47,081 nt of DNA from a virus, in IMG/VR virus record IMGVR_UViG_3300032307_000541, positions 1 to 47,081 of that record; one strand, written 5' to 3'. Positions 28,434 to 46,302 of this stretch are shown piece by piece (the stretch's first letter is position 1; every line of letters begins with the position of its first letter). Both the position numbers and the translations under genes were made by a program. The notes below the pieces were generated by a model. That model had not been told where the DNA came from and did no database searches. It saw only the letters and a list, made by a program, of their open reading frames with translations.

Positions 28434-29177
28434 ATGAAAAAAGAAAAAGCAATTATAGTTAGTGGGTACTTTAATCCCCTACACAAAGGACACTTAGAGT
28501 TATTTAAAAAAGCTAAATCACAAGCCGATAAGTTATGGGTAATCGTTAATTCGGATTTCCAAAGAGAATTAAAAGGTTCTAAAGAGTTCATGTCCGATAC
28601 TGAGCGATTAGAAATAGTAAAGGCGATTAAGTGGGTTGATTATGCATTAATCTCGTCCGATAGAGATAGAACTCAATGTTATACCTTACAACAATTTCAC
28701 GAAATGTTTTCGGATAAATATGATTTGGCATTTGCCAATGGTGGAGACCAAAACAATGATACCATTCCTGAAAGAGAAGTTTGTGAGAGATTGGGTATAG
28801 AACTATTAGATGGTTTGGGTGATAAAATACAAAGTAGTAGTTGGTTACTGAAAGCAGACCTAAAAGAGAAAACAAAACGTTACTTTGAGTTATTTGCATC
28901 AAAGAATGTTAAAGGATTGGAAAATGAAATTTATGCAGATAATATTTTCCTTAGAGATTGGAATGGTGAATGGAGAGGTAAACAGGCAGTTTTGGAGATG
29001 AATGAAAATCTTTTTGAAAGTGAATTCCAAATTACTAATATAGAAATCAAACAGGCAGATAATACAACTTTAGTACAATTTGATTTACACATAGCAGATA
29101 CCATTCTAAAAGTTGTGGATGTGATTGATTGGAACGAAAATGGAAAGATAGAAAGAATCTTAGCATATAATGGATAA
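28434..29177 (+). CDS. cytidylyltransferase-like protein fused to a SnoaL-like domain
   Basis: A 247-residue two-domain protein. Residues 1-140 are a HIGH-type nucleotidyltransferase: FNPLHKGH with H17-x-G-H20, and IQSSSWLL (132-139) in the position of the ISTT motif of cytidylyltransferases (TagD, RfaE C-terminal, PCYT types). Residues about 143-247 (KTKRYFELFASKNVKG..., RGKQAVLEMNENLF) look like a SnoaL/NTF2-like domain. It would transfer a nucleotide to a phospho-sugar or phospho-alcohol; substrate unknown. A bidirectional terminator follows. Confidence 0.78.
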   Translation: MKKEKAIIVSGYFNPLHKGHLELFKKAKSQADKLWVIVNSDFQRELKGSKEFMSDTERLEIVKAIKWVDYALISSDRDRTQCYTLQQFHEMFSDKYDLAFANGGDQNNDTIPEREVCERLGIELLDGLGDKIQSSSWLLKADLKEKTKRYFELFASKNVKGLENEIYADNIFLRDWNGEWRGKQAVLEMNENLFESEFQITNIEIKQADNTTLVQFDLHIADTILKVVDVIDWNENGKIERILAYNG

Positions 29178-29238: not shown

Positions 29239-30036
29239 TTAAAATTTATTTCCGCAGTGTGGGCAGAACTTAAAAGATGATTTCTTTCTTTTAGCTCCAC
29301 AATTTCCACAATAGTTTACACCTACTTCTTCTGCTGTATATTGTTTTTGTGATGTTGGTAAAATCTGCCAAACAACATTCCAAAACGAAAACTGATTGAA
29401 TGTTTTGTTTGTATGTTGGAATGTTTGTTCTGAACTATCACCCTTTTCAGTTGTACCTGTTTCTACTTTATTAGATAGATTTCTAATGTTTGGACCTTCA
29501 AATGTATTAGTGGTTAAACTAGCATTATAGAATGTGCTTGTTGATGTAGTTGCGGTACCTGATGTTAAACTATTCACACCAGTTGTAGTAAATGTTATTG
29601 GATTTCCATTAACTGTATGCGTTGAGTATGTGAAACTAGGACTTCCATAAATGGTTCTATTTGGGAATGTTGGTTTGTATTCTGAATAGAACTCAATCTC
29701 CACATATCCGTTATTTCTAATCGCATCCTGAACCTCTGTATTATTTCCATTAACTACATAGGTTGAGTATTTAAACTTGTTAGGCGAGTCCAAAAAGCGT
29801 TCTAAGAACACTCTTTCACCCCTTCTAAGAACTATACCGCCGCCGGCAATATAATCCCCATCGATTTTAATTTTTGCCAATACTACCTCTTGTGAAGGAT
29901 TGAATAGCTCAATTTCGTATTCATCTCCATCGGAGAGATATACTTGTCCATCAAATTGTTTGATTCTTTTTTTACCTTTCGTAATGAAGGCTTCTGGTCT
30001 TTTTGTAGCAGACCATGTGTTTGTAATGTTGTACAT
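29239..30036 (-). CDS. zinc-ribbon protein with beta-rich body
   Basis: A 265-residue protein. The first 130 residues hold beta-rich sequence (YEIELFNPSQEVVLAKIKIDG; GGIVLRRGERVFLERFLD), then a Thr/Asn-rich linker, and a C-terminal zinc ribbon with Cys243, Cys246, Cys258 and Cys261 (CGNCG ... CPHCG). The beta part resembles carbohydrate or virion-surface folds, but I cannot name a family. Lies at the end of the minus-strand block. Its promoter is not obvious; the only TATTTTTA-like box upstream lacks a -33 partner. Confidence 0.7.
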   Translation of the reverse strand: MYNITNTWSATKRPEAFITKGKKRIKQFDGQVYLSDGDEYEIELFNPSQEVVLAKIKIDGDYIAGGGIVLRRGERVFLERFLDSPNKFKYSTYVVNGNNTEVQDAIRNNGYVEIEFYSEYKPTFPNRTIYGSPSFTYSTHTVNGNPITFTTTGVNSLTSGTATTSTSTFYNASLTTNTFEGPNIRNLSNKVETGTTEKGDSSEQTFQHTNKTFNQFSFWNVVWQILPTSQKQYTAEEVGVNYCGNCGAKRKKSSFKFCPHCGNKF

Positions 30037-30266: not shown

Positions 30267-30392
30267 ATGATAAACTTACTTATAGCCCTTACATTAATGT
30301 GTAGCTCTTTAGGAGCAGTAATTTCTAAAACAACAAAGGAGTATGGATTCCGCAAACACAGAGAACATACTGAACCATTAAAGTTGGATTAA
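30267..30392 (+). CDS. 41-residue peptide with hydrophobic N-terminus
   Basis: MINLLIALTLMCSSLGAVIS is a short hydrophobic stretch (signal-like or anchor), then a polar tail (YGFRKHREHTEPL). Plus-strand gene in the minus-strand block, convergent with and overlapping by 15 nt the P-loop gene. Weak promoter in front; low-moderate support. Confidence 0.4.
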   Translation: MINLLIALTLMCSSLGAVISKTTKEYGFRKHREHTEPLKLD

Positions 30393-30926
30393 CTTAATAA
30401 TATTGTTGACAGTATCATCATCCACCATAACTTCGATATAAGGGATGTTATGGGCATCTAATGAGGATTGTATCAGATTATCCAATTCAATTGATTCAGC
30501 CAAACTCTGATACCTTTCAGCATCATTATGTTCACCTTCTGTATTTCTTTTTAGGATGATATTGAGATTATCGTATTGATTGAATATGGATAGAACCATA
30601 TCATCAAATTCCTTTCCGTATAATTTAGCAGGATATGTATCTGAATTATTGTAGTAATTTTTATAAACCAAACTCAATAGTATTGGTGAATCAACAATTA
30701 TGTATTTTACTTTACCATACGATTTAGCTATCCCTCTATGTTGATTAGCTACCACATATAATTGGTCACCAATCGCTTCTTTATTCTTATCCCATGCCAA
30801 CACATTAGGAAACTCATAAGGAGCATCACAACTAATATGTTTCTTCTTAAGTTTATATGTTAAGCCGGCAGCGATAGAAGATTTTCCAATGCCAGGTCCA
30901 CCAAATAGATTTATAATTTTACTCAT
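30378..30926 (-). CDS. P-loop NTPase (kinase-like)
   Basis: A 182-residue protein. GGPGIGKSS at 9-17 is the Walker A loop; VKYIIVDSPILL is the likely Walker B strand. Size and order resemble the AAA_28/NadR-kinase-like group and P-loop nucleotide kinases of phages. The minus frame is open back to 31019, but that part includes the promoter, so ATG 30926 is used. Nucleoside, NMN or other small-molecule kinase activity is possible; substrate unknown. The C terminus overlaps a tiny plus-strand gene. Confidence 0.72.
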   Translation of the reverse strand: MSKIINLFGGPGIGKSSIAAGLTYKLKKKHISCDAPYEFPNVLAWDKNKEAIGDQLYVVANQHRGIAKSYGKVKYIIVDSPILLSLVYKNYYNNSDTYPAKLYGKEFDDMVLSIFNQYDNLNIILKRNTEGEHNDAERYQSLAESIELDNLIQSSLDAHNIPYIEVMVDDDTVNNIIKLIQL

Positions 30927-30996: not shown

Positions 30997-33900
30997 TTAG
31001 TTAAAGATGTATCTAACACCTAACTGAATTTGGTAACGAGAACCAAATCCTACGTTATCTCTAAATGAATCAGTATAAGGAACTTTATTTCTTCCATCCA
31101 AATAAGGGAATGAGAAGATTGGAGTTTTACCATCAGCATCCAATTTAACGAAGTTAAGTGGAGTCATAGTTGTTGGGATTTTTTGGATACCTAACTCACT
31201 ACTGATTAAGTTAGTGAAGTTATAGATATCAGCAGTAAATCTCAATGTATGTTTTGAATCTTTATATTTGATATAGAAATCTTGCGTAAAGTTCAAATCC
31301 ATTCTATGAACCCAAGGTAATATCAATGCTTGCCTTTCAGCAAACTGACCTCTACGAGAGTTTAAGTAAGGATTGCCTGAAATGAAAGCATCTAATTGAT
31401 TCCACAATTCTGCTTGTGTTCTTGTATCAGCTACACCACCTACTGCAGCTGCGTTAGTTAATTTGATTTGAGATGCATCTTTAGGAACGAAGATTAAATC
31501 GTTACCATTGAAACCATCGTTATTCAAATCACCTGCGTATGTGTATGATAGAGAAGATTGTGGAGCGTTAGGAGAAGCTTCATACAATAATGCGAATGAA
31601 GTTCTTGTGTTCTTAATAAATTCTTTACCATAATTCATACTAGCAATAATTCTATGAGGTAAGTAGTTGTTTGAAAAACCTGCCTCAAAGTTGTTAGGAT
31701 TGGTAGATGTTGGTCTAGCTCCCCACATTGTAAATGCAGTTGAACCATTGATTGTAGCATCTTTTGCAGTTTGACGAGTATAAGAAGCGTTTACACCTAA
31801 GTTCTTAAATTGTCTTTGTACTTGCAATGTTCCGAATAATACATAACCAATGTTTGCATTAGTCATATAAATTGCGTTACCAATGTTTGGATTAGCTGCT
31901 GTTTGAGCTGCACCAGTTGCATCGTAAACTGAACGTTTAGCGAAACGAGTTCTACCATCACTTAATGTAATGTTACCTGTTGATGGTAATACTACGTTTT
32001 GGAATACGGTAGCGTTAATGTTCTTAATGTAAGTTCCTTCCGCAGTTACTGTCCATCCCAATACTTTCTTATCAACTGCTAATGTAGATTTCCAAACTTG
32101 CGGAAATTTATAATTAGGGTCAGTTACGTTAAGAGAATATGATTTAGATAAACCTGGCGTTGGAGTAGGTCTATAAGCGTTAATATCAGGTGAGAACATA
32201 TATCCAGTTCCGTTTGTAATAGAACCAAACAATGCCATACCACTATTAGATGCCTGATTTGAAATCCATACGAATGGAGGAGGGCCTTGGAATAACCCAG
32301 TACCACCTCTGATTTGTAAAGTTTCATCATCAAACACATCATAGTTGAAACCAATTCTAGGAGAAATTTGTAATGAAGCTTTAGGTGCTAAACCTGTGTT
32401 CAAACGTACTCCATTATAGAATTTAGATAAAGTATCAACTACGGGATTGTAAAGGAAGTTATCAGCGAAAGAAACATAATCTGCTCTAACACCATAAGTA
32501 ATAGTTAAATTATCTTTTACTCTGAATTTATCCTGAGCGAATAAACTTAATTCAGTATTTTTAGGTCCAACTAATGGGAAACCACCACTTAGAGAATATG
32601 ATAAATCATATAATGCTGCTGGTTTAGTTCCAGCTGCCGAAGCGTAGAAATCAGCCAAACTATTGAAACGATATGCACCTGCGAATGAAGGTGAAAAACC
32701 ATTTGAATATTGTTTGAATGAGTTTTGTGTTCCGAATGTAAATTCGTGCTTACCTTTGTATAAGTTGAAAATGTTATTCAATTGAACTACATCGGTATTC
32801 AATACGTTACCATAAGTAAATCTTTCAAAACCAAAAGTTGTATAAGGTAAACCATTACCATCTAAGATATCCACTTGAGGGAAATCACCACTACTTAATG
32901 AACTTCTGAAATCTCTTAATTGGGTATATCCAATTTGTAATTTATTAGAAGCGTTGTTAGAGAAACGAGTATTCAATTCTCCAATTACGATATCGGCATT
33001 GTTATTAATTACATAACCACTACCAAAGAACGGCATTGCAGTTGGACCTGGTCTTCTACCATTTGATGAGTTGATTGAACCACTATTAGAAGCTGGGATA
33101 TCTGCTGAAGAACGTAACATTGTATATTTCAATGAGAACGAATTCTTATCATTAATAGTCCAATCAATCTTAGATGTTAATCTTTGTGATTTAGAACCAT
33201 ATTGATATCCTTGATACGCACCCGGATCGTAATTGTATTTATCAATTAAGAACTTTCTCAATGCATCTAATTCTGATGTTCTTGCTTGAGATACGTTAAT
33301 ACCATTTGGAGTATTAGTACCATCCGCTGCTACCCATTGGGTACCAGGTTCCATTCTACTTTCTTGCTCACCATTTACGAAGAAGAACAATTTGTTTTTA
33401 ATGATTGCTCCACCTGCTGTAAAACCTTTTAAGTCATAAGTGAAATCCTGTTTAGGTTGTGTAATTTCACCAACTTTATAACCCTGTAAATCTTTATTCT
33501 TAATGAATTGATATACAGAACCGAATGCTTGATTCTTACCACTACGAGTCACAGTGTTAATAGAACCGCCAGCGAACCCACCATACTTAACATCAAATGG
33601 TGAAACGTTTACTTGGATTTGCTCAATCGCATCTAAGGAAATTGGTTGAGCTCCTGTTTGTCCACCTAATGTACCATCACCCAATCCGAATGAGTTATTG
33701 AAGTTCGCACCATCTAAGGTAACGTTATTCAATTGAGAACTCATACCACCAAATGATAAGTTGTTTTGAGAAGGAACTAATTTAACTAAGTCTTTCCAAC
33801 TACGATTCACGTTTGGTACAGTCTCAATCAATTTTCTATTGATGATTTCCTGTGAACCATTACGGCTTGAGTTAAATACATTACTTTGTCTTGATGTTAC

Positions 33901-34257
33901 CACAACTTCATTTAATGTGGTAGCCGCTTCAACTAAAGTAAAGTTAGCTTTGTAAGTTTGTCCTAACAATAAAGTAATATCACTTTGTGTTTCAGTTTTG
34001 AATCCCACAAATGATACCGTTACTACATAAGGTCCTCCAATTTTAAGGTTTGGTAGGTTGTATCTTCCATCCATACGAGTAGTTGTACCATACTTCGTAC
34101 CAGTTGGTTGATGCACAGCTACTACGGTTGCTCCCGGAATAGACTGTTTACCATCCAAAACAATTCCTTGAATTTCAGATGTAGTCTCCTGCGCGTACGC
34201 CCCAAATGATAGAAGTGTTACCACCATCAAAAGGAGAAATTTTCCGATTTTTTTCAT
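30997..34257 (-). CDS. Oar-like TonB-dependent outer-membrane receptor
   Basis: A complete 1086-residue receptor. Signal peptide 1-22 (cleavage after AYA), CarboxypepD_reg-like domain about 27-108 (IQGIVLDGKQSIPGATVV; MDGRYNLPNLKIGGPYVV), TonB-box-like LNEVVVTSRQ at 115-124, plug about 130-240 (LNNVTLDGANF), then the long 22-strand barrel, ending LGVRYIFN with a C-terminal aromatic residue. This is the Oar/SusC-related architecture of Bacteroidetes importers or adhesion proteins; ligand unknown. No frameshift or internal stop is seen. It is flanked by phage-type genes and driven by a promoter of the local type. Host origin is likely; a role in receptor swapping, uptake or superinfection exclusion is inferred. 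Confidence 0.92.
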   Translation of the reverse strand: MKKIGKFLLLMVVTLLSFGAYAQETTSEIQGIVLDGKQSIPGATVVAVHQPTGTKYGTTTRMDGRYNLPNLKIGGPYVVTVSFVGFKTETQSDITLLLGQTYKANFTLVEAATTLNEVVVTSRQSNVFNSSRNGSQEIINRKLIETVPNVNRSWKDLVKLVPSQNNLSFGGMSSQLNNVTLDGANFNNSFGLGDGTLGGQTGAQPISLDAIEQIQVNVSPFDVKYGGFAGGSINTVTRSGKNQAFGSVYQFIKNKDLQGYKVGEITQPKQDFTYDLKGFTAGGAIIKNKLFFFVNGEQESRMEPGTQWVAADGTNTPNGINVSQARTSELDALRKFLIDKYNYDPGAYQGYQYGSKSQRLTSKIDWTINDKNSFSLKYTMLRSSADIPASNSGSINSSNGRRPGPTAMPFFGSGYVINNNADIVIGELNTRFSNNASNKLQIGYTQLRDFRSSLSSGDFPQVDILDGNGLPYTTFGFERFTYGNVLNTDVVQLNNIFNLYKGKHEFTFGTQNSFKQYSNGFSPSFAGAYRFNSLADFYASAAGTKPAALYDLSYSLSGGFPLVGPKNTELSLFAQDKFRVKDNLTITYGVRADYVSFADNFLYNPVVDTLSKFYNGVRLNTGLAPKASLQISPRIGFNYDVFDDETLQIRGGTGLFQGPPPFVWISNQASNSGMALFGSITNGTGYMFSPDINAYRPTPTPGLSKSYSLNVTDPNYKFPQVWKSTLAVDKKVLGWTVTAEGTYIKNINATVFQNVVLPSTGNITLSDGRTRFAKRSVYDATGAAQTAANPNIGNAIYMTNANIGYVLFGTLQVQRQFKNLGVNASYTRQTAKDATINGSTAFTMWGARPTSTNPNNFEAGFSNNYLPHRIIASMNYGKEFIKNTRTSFALLYEASPNAPQSSLSYTYAGDLNNDGFNGNDLIFVPKDASQIKLTNAAAVGGVADTRTQAELWNQLDAFISGNPYLNSRRGQFAERQALILPWVHRMDLNFTQDFYIKYKDSKHTLRFTADIYNFTNLISSELGIQKIPTTMTPLNFVKLDADGKTPIFSFPYLDGRNKVPYTDSFRDNVGFGSRYQIQLGVRYIFN

Positions 34258-34454
34258 GTTTGTTTGTTTTTGTTTTAATTGTAACTTGTTAAAAATAAAA
34301 AAGGGTAAGAAGATTACTCTCCTACACCCTTAGTTTGCCCAGCCGCTTCCCTTACAAAACGGGCTGAAGTATTTGTATATAGATATGTATATTTATTCAT
34401 AAGCTTGGTAACGATTTTCAGTTAATAACTATTATGCTATTAACAAAAGTTTTA
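34258..34454 (-). promoter_or_regulatory. leader of the TonB-receptor gene with candidate attenuator
   Basis: About 190 nt between the minus-strand promoter and the ATG. On the RNA, GGGTGTAGGAGA (34329-34318) pairs with TCTTCTTACCC (34313-34303), 11 bp with two G-U and one bulge, GUAA loop, and runs into TTTTTTATTTTT (34302-34291): an intrinsic terminator before the start codon. Upstream, CAGCCCG and CGGCTG within 34340-34366 can form a second hairpin. The pair resembles an attenuator or riboswitch platform; no known aptamer was recognised. Confidence 0.6.
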
Positions 34455-34486
34455 CAAATATACGAAAAATATTTTACATTACCAAA
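34455..34486 (-). promoter_or_regulatory. minus-strand promoter of the TonB-receptor gene
   Basis: On the minus strand TTTG (34486-34483), 20 nt, TATATTTG (34462-34455). The spacing equals that of the plus-strand promoters. Confidence 0.82.
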
Positions 34487-34838: not shown

Positions 34839-35186
34839 ATGAGAGTAATGACACAAAAATCATTAGATTATCTTAAAAACAACCCTAAAGTTGCCGAATT
34901 TTTAACAAAAGTAAACGCCGAAAGAGCTGAATACTACAAAAATATGGCTTCTATGAAAGATAAAACCGATTTAACATTGGAAGTTGGTAACAAATTCCTT
35001 CGTTTATGGGATGGTTCATCTTGTTGGGGATTTATCAGTAGAGTTGATGGTGATTTAAAAGGTTCACCTATCAAAAAAGGTGATTTACTAAAAGCTGCTA
35101 GTTGGAAAGCTCCAGCAAAGCACGCTAGAGGTAATATAACCGATGGTACTGCTCGTTATGGAGTGTACGGACCGGAATATTTATAA
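34839..35186 (+). CDS. conserved phage hypothetical protein
   Basis: A 115-residue protein. FLRLWDGSSCWGFISRVDG, KKGDLLKAASWKAPAKHARG and YGVYGPEYL are highly conserved in a small phage family of unknown function. An N-terminal helix precedes. Probably a DNA-metabolism accessory protein given its position before the helicase, but that is only context. Confidence 0.72.
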   Translation: MRVMTQKSLDYLKNNPKVAEFLTKVNAERAEYYKNMASMKDKTDLTLEVGNKFLRLWDGSSCWGFISRVDGDLKGSPIKKGDLLKAASWKAPAKHARGNITDGTARYGVYGPEYL

Positions 35187-35192
35187 AAATTA

Positions 35193-36569
35193 ATGAAATT
35201 AAGACCTAACCAAATAGAACCGGTAGAAAAAGGGGTAGCCTTCTTTAATCAAAAGAAAGCTAGCCCTTCTATCATTGTTGCGCCTACCGCTTTTGGTAAA
35301 AGTATTGTTATTGCAGAAATTGCACATAGATTGGGTGAAAAATTATTGGTTATTCAACCATCCAAAGAATTATTAGAACAAAATTACAATAAATTTATTA
35401 ATTTAGGGGGAACTGCTTCAATTTACTCCGCAGCAATGGGTGAAAAGGAGATTGGTGATGTTACATACGCCACAATTGGTTCTATTGTTAATATAGCCCA
35501 TAAATTTCATACATTAGGTATCAAAAAAGTGATTATTGATGAGTGTGATAGATTTCCAAGAGAGCCGGATGGTATGTTAAGGAGATTTCTTACAGCTGCT
35601 AAGATAACTCATGTATTGGGATTAACCGCAACTCCATTAAAATTACAAACTAACATAGATGAGTATTTCAAACCATTCTCAAAATTGGTTATGCTCACAT
35701 CTAAGAGTAAAAAAGGTAATTATTTCAAAGATATCATTCATGTTGCTCAAATTAAGGAAATGTGTGATATGGGATTCTGGTCACCATTACAATATGAATC
35801 ATACGATTTCGATACTGGAGCATTAGTTTACAATTCCACAAATGCGGAATTTACCGATGATAGTATTAAGAAGGCTTATAAACAGCAAGATATTGGTGGT
35901 AAGATTATTAAGAGAATATCTGAATTAACGGATAGAAAATCAATATTAGTGGCAGTTCCATCTATTGAAGAAGCAAAGGAGCTTTCCACTCGTTTACCAA
36001 GCTGCGAAGCCGTATTTAGTGGTATGCCTGATAGTGAGCGTGATAGAATCATTGAAGATTTTAAAGCATTACGATTACGAATAGTAGTTCAGGTTACTAT
36101 TCTTTCAGTAGGATTTGACCACCCGCAGTTAGATTGTATTATAACCGGCCGCCCTACCGCATCTTTGAGTTGGTGGTATCAGTTTGTAGGTAGAGTAACT
36201 CGTATCCATCCTGACAAAGCCAATGGGCTTGTAGTAGATTTTGTTGGTAGTGTACCTAAGTTCGGAAAGGTGGAGGATTTATATTTTGAATATGAAGAAC
36301 CACTTTGGAAATTATATGGAGAAGGTCAAAAGTTATTAACAGGCATTCCATTACATGAAATTGGGTTACATAAACAAAATCAACCATCACCGCATGATAT
36401 AGCCGCTCAAGGGCCTGTGGTTAAGATGACATTCGGAAAATATAAAGATACTGAAATTCGTAAGATTCCGATTTGGTATCGTAAATGGATGTTGGAAAAT
36501 ATTAAATGGAATCCGTTCAACAAACACATTCAGCAAGAATTACTACGTCTTAAGGAAATCGGTATTTAG
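35193..36569 (+). CDS. SF2 helicase with DUF3820-like C-terminal tail
   Basis: A 458-residue superfamily 2 helicase. PTAFGKS (31-37, Walker A), DECD (116-119, Walker B), TATP (145-148, motif III) and VGRVTR (332-337, motif VI) cover both RecA-like lobes. After about residue 405 a 50-residue tail KMTFGKYKDTEIRKIPIWYR-KWML matches the DUF3820/exonuclease X-type C-terminal module. It should unwind or remodel DNA or RNA using ATP, perhaps like T4 UvsW. Starts 6 nt after the preceding gene. Confidence 0.88.
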   Translation: MKLRPNQIEPVEKGVAFFNQKKASPSIIVAPTAFGKSIVIAEIAHRLGEKLLVIQPSKELLEQNYNKFINLGGTASIYSAAMGEKEIGDVTYATIGSIVNIAHKFHTLGIKKVIIDECDRFPREPDGMLRRFLTAAKITHVLGLTATPLKLQTNIDEYFKPFSKLVMLTSKSKKGNYFKDIIHVAQIKEMCDMGFWSPLQYESYDFDTGALVYNSTNAEFTDDSIKKAYKQQDIGGKIIKRISELTDRKSILVAVPSIEEAKELSTRLPSCEAVFSGMPDSERDRIIEDFKALRLRIVVQVTILSVGFDHPQLDCIITGRPTASLSWWYQFVGRVTRIHPDKANGLVVDFVGSVPKFGKVEDLYFEYEEPLWKLYGEGQKLLTGIPLHEIGLHKQNQPSPHDIAAQGPVVKMTFGKYKDTEIRKIPIWYRKWMLENIKWNPFNKHIQQELLRLKEIGI

Positions 36570-38102: not shown

Positions 38103-39572
38103 ATGCAATATGTAAGTTTATCAAAAGTACCAAATAGGTATCCAACATTAAATAACTACACCAAATTTAAAGAGGATGTAGTACTGCTTAATGGTCTATA
38201 CCCTGAAAGAAATAAAATAAACTTTAAATTACCAAAATTTGATGATATTACACCTGTTGATAATACAACATTTAGATTTGTAATTTCAGTTATTGCCGAT
38301 GATACGGATACCAATCCAAGGTATTTTACATCAAAAACCTTCTATAATGATTTAAAATTAGCATATAGAGTTGGTAATCCATTTTTCCCAATACAAGCAT
38401 TAATTGGTGGTGGTAGTGTTCTTACTATAAATCTTAAACAATATTTTGAAATATTTGATAAGTTTGAAAAAGAAGAAAAAGATACACCTGTTGATGTTGT
38501 TAAAAACATTTTCATATCAGATGTATCCGAAACGAATGATAATATAGATAATTTTAAAAAGGAATTAGCTGATGTAAATAAAGAAATTGATACATTCAAC
38601 GAAGATATAGCTGAATTAGAAACTGAATTAAAAAATCAAGAAACAAAACCATCTAAAGGAATTGATAAACTTAAATTTATTCAAAGAAAAGGTTCAAACA
38701 ATAATGGAAATTTAAAAGATAAGATTAATAATTATAAAGTTCAATTAAATGCCTTAATTATAAAAAGAGATAAATTAACTGAAAATATAAAAGTGGCAAC
38801 TGAATCAGTTAATAGGTCATTATTATCGGATAATTCTACAATTGATTATGAAGCATTTATAAAGTTTATAGATTTTATGGTACAACCACCTAAGTTTGAA
38901 CTTGCAGGAATTGAAACAAACAATGTAATTCCTGCTGAACAAATTGGTGAATGGTCTGGTGAATGGATTTCTGCTTATAAGAGAAGACAGGCTGGTGAGG
39001 TTATAGAAGCAACTACCGTTGATGAAAGAATAACACCACCTAAAAAAGAAGAAGAAAAAACATTTATACAAAAAGTAGGAGAGTTGCCTGTGATTAAACA
39101 AATAGTTGGTGCAGTTAAAGCAGTGGGAAATTTCTTTAAGAAGTTATTCTCCGATTCTAGATTAAAAACCGATATTGTTAAAGTTGGACAGGTTGAAGAT
39201 ATTAATATATACAAATTCAAATTTAAATTTGATAAATCAAAAACTCAAATTGGTGTTATCGCTCAAGAATTATTAAATACTAAATATGCCGATTGTGTAT
39301 CAACGGACCCAACAACCGGATTTTATGTTGTGAATTATAATATATTACAGCAAAAAGTAGATATAGTTGGTGGTATCGATAGAATACAAAAAGAATTAAC
39401 AAGTGGTAAAGGTTTGTTTGCTAAAATAAAAAATAAAATAGAATCACCAAAACCAGCCTATCAAACGGAAGTTCCAACTAAAAAATTAACAATAGGTAGC
39501 AAACTTTCTAAATTATCAAACGATTCTAAAAAAGATGTTGGTAATACTATTTTTAAAAGAAAAAGAAAGTAG
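38103..39572 (+). CDS. tail protein with peptidase S74 intramolecular chaperone
   Basis: A 489-residue protein: an N-terminal beta-rich region, a long coiled coil (about 145-235), a linker, and a C-terminal intramolecular chaperone (peptidase S74). SDSRLK at 350-355 has the catalytic Ser350 and Lys355 of the self-cleaving endosialidase-type chaperone; KTQIGVIAQEL follows as in the family. The chaperone trimerises tail fibres or spikes and removes itself by cleavage before Ser350. Host recognition or cell-surface binding is likely. The leading part is not a recognised fold. Confidence 0.85.
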   Translation: MQYVSLSKVPNRYPTLNNYTKFKEDVVLLNGLYPERNKINFKLPKFDDITPVDNTTFRFVISVIADDTDTNPRYFTSKTFYNDLKLAYRVGNPFFPIQALIGGGSVLTINLKQYFEIFDKFEKEEKDTPVDVVKNIFISDVSETNDNIDNFKKELADVNKEIDTFNEDIAELETELKNQETKPSKGIDKLKFIQRKGSNNNGNLKDKINNYKVQLNALIIKRDKLTENIKVATESVNRSLLSDNSTIDYEAFIKFIDFMVQPPKFELAGIETNNVIPAEQIGEWSGEWISAYKRRQAGEVIEATTVDERITPPKKEEEKTFIQKVGELPVIKQIVGAVKAVGNFFKKLFSDSRLKTDIVKVGQVEDINIYKFKFKFDKSKTQIGVIAQELLNTKYADCVSTDPTTGFYVVNYNILQQKVDIVGGIDRIQKELTSGKGLFAKIKNKIESPKPAYQTEVPTKKLTIGSKLSKLSNDSKKDVGNTIFKRKRK

Positions 39573-39982: not shown

Positions 39983-40813
39983 ATGGCTAAGAAAGAAAAA
40001 ATTCAAAGTTTAGAAGAATTGGAAACGGTAATACATTCATTACCAAAAGTTATAAAGAGAATTAAATTTAAAACCAAAAATCAAAAGAGATTTTATAAAG
40101 CGATAGAGAACGAAGGGAATAACATTATAATGGCTCATGCATTAGCCGGCGCCGGAAAAACTTACATTTCAATACAAAAAGGATTAGAATTATTATTACA
40201 CAAATCATCACCAATAGAAAAACTTATTATTATCAATCCAACAGTCGATGTTGGTAACGAAGATAAGTTAGGTCATTTGCCTGGTGATTTAATGGAAAAA
40301 ATAGAAGTACATAACGAATCATCATTATTTATCTTAAACAAAATTATCGGACCTGTTGAAGTTAAAAAATTAATTGATACTAAAAAGATTGAGTTTAGAG
40401 TGATGAATTTCTTAAGAGGTATTAACTTTGAAAAAGCATATATTATTTTAGATGAGGCACAAAATGCATCACCACTACAGTTGAAAACTTTAATCACTCG
40501 TATTTCAGATGATTCAAAATTAGTTATCGAAGGTGACCTTTCTCAATGTGATAAGTATCGTGCTAACGGAATACCGGCATATCAGAAAAGTGGATTTTAT
40601 GATGTATGGAAACGATTAGCAGGAATGAAGGGAGCATATCAAATAGAATTTACAGCTGAAGATTGTATTCGTTCTGGTATCGTTAAAAGGGTATTGGAAA
40701 GATACGAATTAGAGGAGCAAATTGTATTAGGTGAAAGTAATCCATTTGAACTGAATTTAGACACCCCATCGGAGGGGGAAATTATAGAGGGTGTTTATAT
40801 GGTAGAAAATTAA
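39983..40813 (+). CDS. phoH: PhoH-like ATPase
   Basis: A 276-residue PhoH-family P-loop ATPase. LAGAGKTYIS (Walker A at 55-60), LDEAQN (156-161, Walker B) and GDLSQCD (184-190) are in their usual places. PhoH proteins are common in phages and are thought to act as ATP-driven nucleic-acid helicases or RNA-processing factors under stress. The C-terminal 40 residues (LGESNPFELN...) are extra, acidic and unassigned. First gene of a short unit with the preceding gene. Confidence 0.92.
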   Translation: MAKKEKIQSLEELETVIHSLPKVIKRIKFKTKNQKRFYKAIENEGNNIIMAHALAGAGKTYISIQKGLELLLHKSSPIEKLIIINPTVDVGNEDKLGHLPGDLMEKIEVHNESSLFILNKIIGPVEVKKLIDTKKIEFRVMNFLRGINFEKAYIILDEAQNASPLQLKTLITRISDDSKLVIEGDLSQCDKYRANGIPAYQKSGFYDVWKRLAGMKGAYQIEFTAEDCIRSGIVKRVLERYELEEQIVLGESNPFELNLDTPSEGEIIEGVYMVEN

Positions 40814-45357: not shown

Positions 45358-46302
45358 ATGATGAATTTAGGATACGCTTGTATCAATATGAGTATGGGTA
45401 AGAAAGTAGGCACTAACCGAACAATGGTTAAGAGAACTTTCGAAGCAAAGGGTTTAGATTATGTTTCCGAACTTGCATTACTCAATGCAAAGGATATTAT
45501 TAAAATCTTAGAATGGAATAGATTAAACGGAATTAAATTCTTTCGTTTATCATCTGCTCTTGTTCCTTGGGGTGATGGTTTGGATTTAACTAAATTAAAA
45601 GATTACAAAGAAATTAAGAGAGAGTTAAAGAAAGCTGGTGATTTTGCTAAGTTTTGGAACATGCGTATTAATTCGCATCCCGGTCCATTTAATGTATTAC
45701 CATCACCCAATGAAAAAGTAATTCAATCTACTATTGCGGATTTAGAATTACATGGCAAGATATTCGATATGATGGGGTTATCTAAAACTCCATATAACAA
45801 TATTAATATTCATTGTAATGGTGTTTACGGAGATAAACAATCTGCGATGGATAGATTAATTACAAACTACAAAAGACTCTCACCAAGCGTACGCAAACGA
45901 TTGACATTGGAGAACGATGATAAGGCTTCTATGTATTCCGTAAAAGACCTTATGTATATCCACAAACATACAGGCATTCCAATTGTGTTCGATTATCACC
46001 ATCACCAATTTTGTACAGGTGGATTAACTGAAGAAGAAGCTCTTAAATTAGCAGTAACAACTTGGCCTGATGGAATTACACCTGAAGTTCACTATTCAGA
46101 ATCAAAAGCATTGCACGAAAATAATCCAAAGGAAAAGCCACAAGCTCACTCACTTTATATTAACTCACTTCCAAATACATACGGATTGGATGTGGATATT
46201 ATGGTGGAGGCTAAGGGTAAGGAATTAGCAATACTTCCATTTATAGATAAAACTCCAATATGTGAATATAGTGGATTAACCGCAGTTGAGGCATACGCAT
46301 GA
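45358..46302 (+). CDS. uvsE: UV-damage endonuclease UvdE/UvsE
   Basis: A 314-residue TIM-barrel nuclease of full length. Diagnostic segments: LGYACINMSMG, IKFFRLSSALVPWGD, INSHPGPFNVLPSPN, NIHCNGVYGDK, LTLENDD, PIVFDYHHHQF and EVHYSE, which provide the conserved metal-ligand His, Glu and Asp residues. It nicks DNA 5' of UV photoproducts, starting alternative excision repair. The ATG at 45358 (or the next one at 45361) fits the promoter. It overlaps the membrane-protein gene by 4 nt. Confidence 0.92.
   Translation: MMNLGYACINMSMGKKVGTNRTMVKRTFEAKGLDYVSELALLNAKDIIKILEWNRLNGIKFFRLSSALVPWGDGLDLTKLKDYKEIKRELKKAGDFAKFWNMRINSHPGPFNVLPSPNEKVIQSTIADLELHGKIFDMMGLSKTPYNNINIHCNGVYGDKQSAMDRLITNYKRLSPSVRKRLTLENDDKASMYSVKDLMYIHKHTGIPIVFDYHHHQFCTGGLTEEEALKLAVTTWPDGITPEVHYSESKALHENNPKEKPQAHSLYINSLPNTYGLDVDIMVEAKGKELAILPFIDKTPICEYSGLTAVEAYA

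Follow-up and report, generated by a model that had tools for sequence, protein, structure and literature searches.

Judging from gene order and from a tree of the neighboring helicase, a minus-strand position in a lineage of large phages is a swap slot for envelope genes, with at least eight replacements. In the stretch of DNA analyzed here (the window; 47,081 nucleotides, IMG/VR virus record IMGVR_UViG_3300032307_000541), this position holds an intact TonB-dependent receptor (TBDR). The presence of an apparently host-derived, intact receptor at a position that is swapped among relatives suggests that large, uncultured viruses of Bacteroidota, probably freshwater for the most part, re-equip the infected cell's surface. 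We see an even chance that the receptor is a host-derived, working TonB-dependent transporter in an exchange slot, with uptake as its benefit. No phage slot exchanging TBDRs is described in the literature searched, which took in few subscription papers and no bioRxiv preprints, and the family-wide slot appears to be new; a phage-borne TBDR is itself already known.

The receptor gene (positions 30997 to 34257, minus strand) runs from ATG to stop with zero internal stops and encodes 1086 amino acids. Its Pfam matches, all above the curated cut-offs, are OMP_b-brl_4 (PF25183; 1.4e-41), CarboxypepD_reg (PF13620; 1.3e-19), and Plug (4.7e-6). The N terminus reads as a putative signal peptide (MKKIGKFLLLMVVTLLSFGAYAQ), the C terminus is RYIFN, and a predicted TonB box (LNEVVV, residues 115 to 120) precedes the plug, with L115, E117, V118, and V120 invariant across the receptor types A and B described below (alignment A1). 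An AlphaFold2 model built with 68 homologues (pLDDT of 84.7, pTM of 0.81) contains a plug and about 22 barrel strands, by our own count from DSSP. The best PDB match of this model is the TonB-dependent ferredoxin importer FusA (E value of 2e-34, TM score of 0.68 on the target), and the PDB structure matches are TonB-dependent transporters (TBDTs); a PDB sequence search with the receptor found no full-length relative, and no PHROGs family matched it. The modeled plug within a 22-stranded barrel and the TonB box before the plug are defining features of a TBDT, and the CarboxypepD_reg N-terminal extension together with an Oar-type barrel places the receptor in the Oar subclass. No SusC family is among the Pfam or NCBIfam matches, and the receptor is not part of a SusC/SusD pair, its adjoining genes encoding a kinase-like protein and DUF7717/helicase. 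The complete Oar-like TBDR that the preliminary description had read from the letters is thus borne out by the intact reading frame, the set of Pfam domains, and the predicted fold.

Searching IMG/VR with the receptor protein returned 12 loci, 11 of which share the flanking genes and the inverted orientation. These 11 are 83 to 90% identical to the receptor, save for one 87-residue fragment at 68%, and one lies on a 274-kb contig; at the 12th locus, only 35 residues matched and the neighbors are unrelated. An alignment search extended this to about 135 viral loci in IMG/VR that carry receptor relatives, a figure that spans more than one phage lineage and in which contigs do not count as independent genomes. 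We tested 25 records with relatives of the receptor or of the helicase and found terminase in 15, among them the 274-kb contig with this receptor; together with the conserved synteny, this shows the receptor gene to be a stable part of genuine phage genomes that have hallmark genes. Some of the smaller viral contigs with no terminase match (L187, L189, L191, and L193) are less securely phage, and L187 has many genes in common with the large phages. The location on a phage had been claimed from the start, and it stands on the virus record, the terminases, and the synteny. The two objections that had been raised against it, an assembly join and flanking genes from a bacterial chromosome, were both removed, since the neighbor order recurs identically in independent viral contigs from other metagenomes and the adjoining genes turned out to be shared phage genes. 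The tyrosine integrase PF00589 was not found in 20 related records, which makes lysogenic conversion less likely.

The receptor belongs to a minus-strand island whose outer border is a zinc-ribbon protein gene (29239 to 30036, minus strand). Beside the receptor is a gene for an AAA_28/thymidylate-kinase-like protein (30378 to 30926, minus strand), homologues of which adjoin the slot in relatives; its start was moved from GTG at 31019 to the ATG with which MSKIINLFGG begins. The other border is the first plus-strand gene, encoding a DUF7717-like protein (34839 to 35186) recognized by profile match and synteny, and is followed by the DNA helicase gene (35193 to 36569, plus strand), also recognized by profile match. 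With this helicase as the anchor of a survey, 80 contigs were collected. Within the lineage whose helicases are 69 to 93% identical, the minus-strand place beside the helicase holds one of several cargoes: a type A TBDR, as in the window; a diverged type A TBDR (63 to 68%); a type B TBDR, 37% identical to type A; a type C TBDR, which is a canonical PF00593 receptor of about 905 residues; an OmpA-family protein; or a glycosyltransferase with a calcineurin-like phosphoesterase. Cargo of these kinds is present in every contig of the lineage in which the place is assembled, and no island was found at the place beside the helicase in a more distant clade (helicase identity of 60 to 64%). The outer border is formed by the zinc-ribbon gene for several kinds of cargo, including OmpA (45%) and the glycosyltransferase (47%). 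A helicase DNA tree of 36 rows accounts for the cargo labels with no fewer than eight changes, and on it the type B phages fall among those of type A. In L015, for instance, the helicase matches that of the window at 90% identity, but the receptor does so at only 37%.

Upstream of the receptor, a Bacteroidota-type promoter, TTTG-N20-TATATTTG (34455 to 34486, minus strand), is a perfect match, and TATNTTTG is conserved across relatives. This confirms the earlier claim of a promoter with 20-nt spacing; the window has several perfect copies, of which this is one. The whole window has 32 matches to TTTG-N20-TANNTTTG with at most one mismatch, versus 12.8 expected, and the extended form of the receptor promoter is the same as that of other window promoters, the phage form TTTGG-N-TTCGTATATTTG being recurrent. 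A 24-nt motif, ATACATATNTATATACNAANNCTT (34367 to 34390, minus strand), is common to the leaders of the receptor and zinc-ribbon genes only (2 matches in the window versus 0.05 expected).

The leader also contains a terminator-like hairpin followed by T6 (34301 to 34331, minus strand; -15.0 kcal/mol), the T run of which begins 45 nt upstream of the receptor's start codon. All 20 slot TBDRs of types A and B have the hairpin before them, as do 13 of the 21 other viral TBDRs; among bacterial TBDRs it occurs in 6 of 26, mostly in weaker form, and the type C, OmpA, and glycosyltransferase cargoes lack it. No gene on the same strand lies ahead of the hairpin in the window, so it would affect the transcript of the receptor itself and not serve as the terminator of another gene. 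Attenuation at this hairpin is a hypothesis. A putative leader ORF of 28 codons (34314 to 34400, minus strand) has its stop inside the hairpin, both in the window and in its nearest relatives. Leader-peptide attenuation is not claimed, because amino acid conservation of this ORF is weak outside those relatives and because several other lineages have, as their small ORF, a separate gene rich in lysine. That gene, found directly before the receptor and hairpin in L210, L212, L215, L240, L243, and L254, encodes a conserved, possibly histone-like protein of about 58 residues. Some compensatory changes are seen in an upstream hairpin, and no Rfam riboswitch matched the leader even at an E value of 5.

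The nearest bacterial homologues of the receptor, at 60 to 66% identity, belong to genomes of freshwater Chitinophagaceae and Sediminibacterium-like bacteria. All phages in this study are metagenomic; from the relatives of the receptor only, we infer Bacteroidota as their hosts, and the records of the bacterial relatives point to a freshwater habitat. A tree of the whole family forces at least eight changes between virus and bacterium, which makes repeated entry of its TBDRs into phages probable. The type A data do not reject a single viral clade (p-AU of 0.56). Type B is a branch with 49 viral and 3 bacterial members and is not a purely viral family, as three Chitinophagaceae-like MAG contigs with bacterial neighbors carry receptors 84 to 85% identical to the phage copies; in a sample of 296 genomes from that bacterial family, the other type B matches reach at most about 51%. 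A second, different TBDR with a Plug domain is found on the contigs of L004, L015, L017, and L035, and in L017 (3 to 1778) it adjoins the slot. The window has a PhoH gene (39983 to 40813, plus strand), and in L095 and L096, which are among the closest bacterial genomes, a PhoH homologue sits immediately upstream of the TBDR; this proximity in both phage and bacteria is probably coincidental.

Type A receptors are under purifying selection, with dN/dS of 0.07 to 0.16 in close pairs, in which dS is up to about 0.9, and of about 0.2 to 0.28 toward the group of L031, L034, and L202. By region, dN/dS is 0.045 in the plug, 0.088 in the TonB box and linker, 0.097 in the barrel, 0.159 in the extracellular loops (boundaries set by hand from the DSSP string), 0.20 in the N-terminal extension, and 0.54 in the signal peptide. 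For the bacterial homologues, represented by two pairs only, the values are 0.156 for the loops and 0.134 for the plug, and relative to these two pairs the type A loops evolve no faster (0.159 versus 0.156). With the plug under the strongest selection and the TonB box also strongly constrained, the protein looks like a working transporter, and the regional pattern favors an active transporter over a decoy or rapid receptor evasion. The plug also seals and folds the barrel, however, and its conservation by itself is no proof of transport. On balance, we consider it quite probable that the receptor is a working transporter, while the chance that import is what is selected falls just short of even.

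TBDRs are the main uptake route in Bacteroidota and are common entry points for phages. In the explanation that we favor, the receptor gene would have come from a Bacteroidota host and would sit in a slot reserved for envelope proteins that can be exchanged. Expressed in infection, it would allow the large phages to put the receptor into the outer membrane of the infected cell, where the host TonB-ExbBD would power it. TonB_C was absent from the 25 records searched and ExbB from 20, with positive controls in both cases; these linear records may be incomplete, and on this evidence the energy would need to come from the host. The likeliest benefit, which is also the weakest step, would be TonB-driven uptake of a substrate limiting phage production. 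A surface change that hinders competing phages is a close alternative and could be either a by-product or the main gain.

The four roles listed in the preliminary description (nutrient import, receptor replacement, superinfection exclusion, and decoy) cannot be separated from sequence alone. Under receptor replacement or superinfection exclusion, the slot would remodel the host surface and the TBDR would replace or outnumber phage receptors, thereby blocking adsorption, a serious possibility that we nevertheless place distinctly below even. The alternatives in the slot are all envelope-related (three TBDR types, OmpA, and glycosyltransferase plus phosphoesterase) and have been replaced at least eight times on the helicase tree. 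Glycosyltransferase homologues adjoin TBDRs in other phages (L197 to L200 and L204), glycosyltransferase and phosphoesterase lie within 10 kb in L191 and L193, and a conserved phage lipoprotein is encoded nearby. Receptor change is a standard route to exclusion, Cor blocking FhuA, itself a TBDR (PMC11436027), and LPS remodeling has been proposed for other Bacteroidetes phages (PMC9723584). Yet the TonB box is conserved, although a decoy or replacement would not require one, the extracellular loops show no excess change, and swapping would equally fit importers of different substrates. Import, for its part, has to accommodate a slot that also takes OmpA and the glycosyltransferase-phosphoesterase pair, neither of which is an importer. 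Nor do the bacterial neighbors of the closest homologues point to a common substrate: there is no consistent partner, with an aminotransferase, a sugar oxidoreductase, an esterase, and a glutamate-cysteine ligase differing by group. That this is a dedicated, regulated slot in apparently virulent large phages, with which each re-equips the host surface for import and exclusion at once, is plausible, if somewhat below an even chance.

The direction of transport is not certain, as Myxococcus xanthus Oar, which has the same layout (CarboxypepD_reg extension, plug, and TonB box), is needed for PopC secretion (PMC6434023). TonB-driven secretion of a phage or host protein across the outer membrane nonetheless seems improbable here: no PopC-like partner was found in the window, and the partner of type B, a CpeT-family protein, occurs in some contigs only. 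This protein has a signal-like N terminus and directly follows the type B receptor in L015 (5000 to 5605), L017 (2676 to 3293), and L027 (3149 to 3754), too few loci for it to be a fixed partner. A passenger gene, recently captured from a host and with no role, or a misassembly was already disfavored and is barely credible given the low dN/dS of 0.07 to 0.16 with dS up to about 0.9, the conserved leader hairpin, and synteny in many independent contigs.

The earlier statement that no well-described phage has a complete importer needs qualifying. Megaphage Mar_Mega_1 carries a SusC-type receptor for which carbohydrate uptake was proposed (PMC9723777), and the BFVD library of viral structures contains one convincing TBDR, the SusC of an uncultured marine phage (A0A8D9FQQ5). 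These are likewise TBDRs on very large phages but are of the SusC type, with 11% identity in structural alignment; the Mar_Mega_1 gene was reported as a single gene, also in LR745206, without analysis of synteny, swapping, or selection (PMC9723777). SusC and IroN are listed, without phage context, among the viral auxiliary genes of the infant gut (PMC12352455). Bacterial Oar proteins (M. xanthus Oar, PMC6434023; Chitinophagaceae) share the CarboxypepD_reg extension, plug, TonB box, and large barrel, whereas the phage receptor has a phage promoter and a leader hairpin that is missing in most bacterial homologues. P22 gtrABC, D3 oac, and phi80/N15 cor (PMC11436027) are also phage genes altering the host surface, and the slot of relatives holds a glycosyltransferase; however, those genes belong mainly to prophages and act by modifying or blocking a receptor, and here the phage brings a complete TBDR. 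The bS21-carrying jumbo phages of freshwater Bacteroidetes are similar in being large, in their predicted Bacteroidetes hosts, and in having LPS biosynthesis genes read as surface remodeling, but we found no such receptor mentioned in the text of that paper (PMC9723584). If our explanation is correct, the virus would partly set the transport and phage susceptibility of infected cells, and the locus offers natural variants (types A, B, and C, OmpA, and glycosyltransferase) along with conserved TonB box and plug residues for telling import from exclusion. The porin of phage PA-2 was considered as a precedent, but the literature searched contained nothing on it, and it plays no part in the argument.

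The conserved phage lipoprotein (41483 to 42022, plus strand) had no Pfam match, and its structure model was discarded as unusable (pLDDT of 55). Its Cys14 is invariant (alignment A5) and the lipobox is followed by a surface-export-like C-T-K-D-D-E; in many members, the lipobox Cys is followed by K and acidic residues, a pattern that we take to resemble Bacteroidota surface-export signals. A few kilobases from the slot, a virion protein with an S74 endosialidase-chaperone domain (38103 to 39572, plus strand) is about 26 to 37% identical among relatives, in which neighboring genes are mostly 70 to 90% identical, and is a candidate host recognition protein. The window also encodes a cytidylyltransferase-like domain fused to a SnoaL-like domain (28434 to 29177, plus strand) and the UV endonuclease UvdE (45358 to 46302, plus strand).
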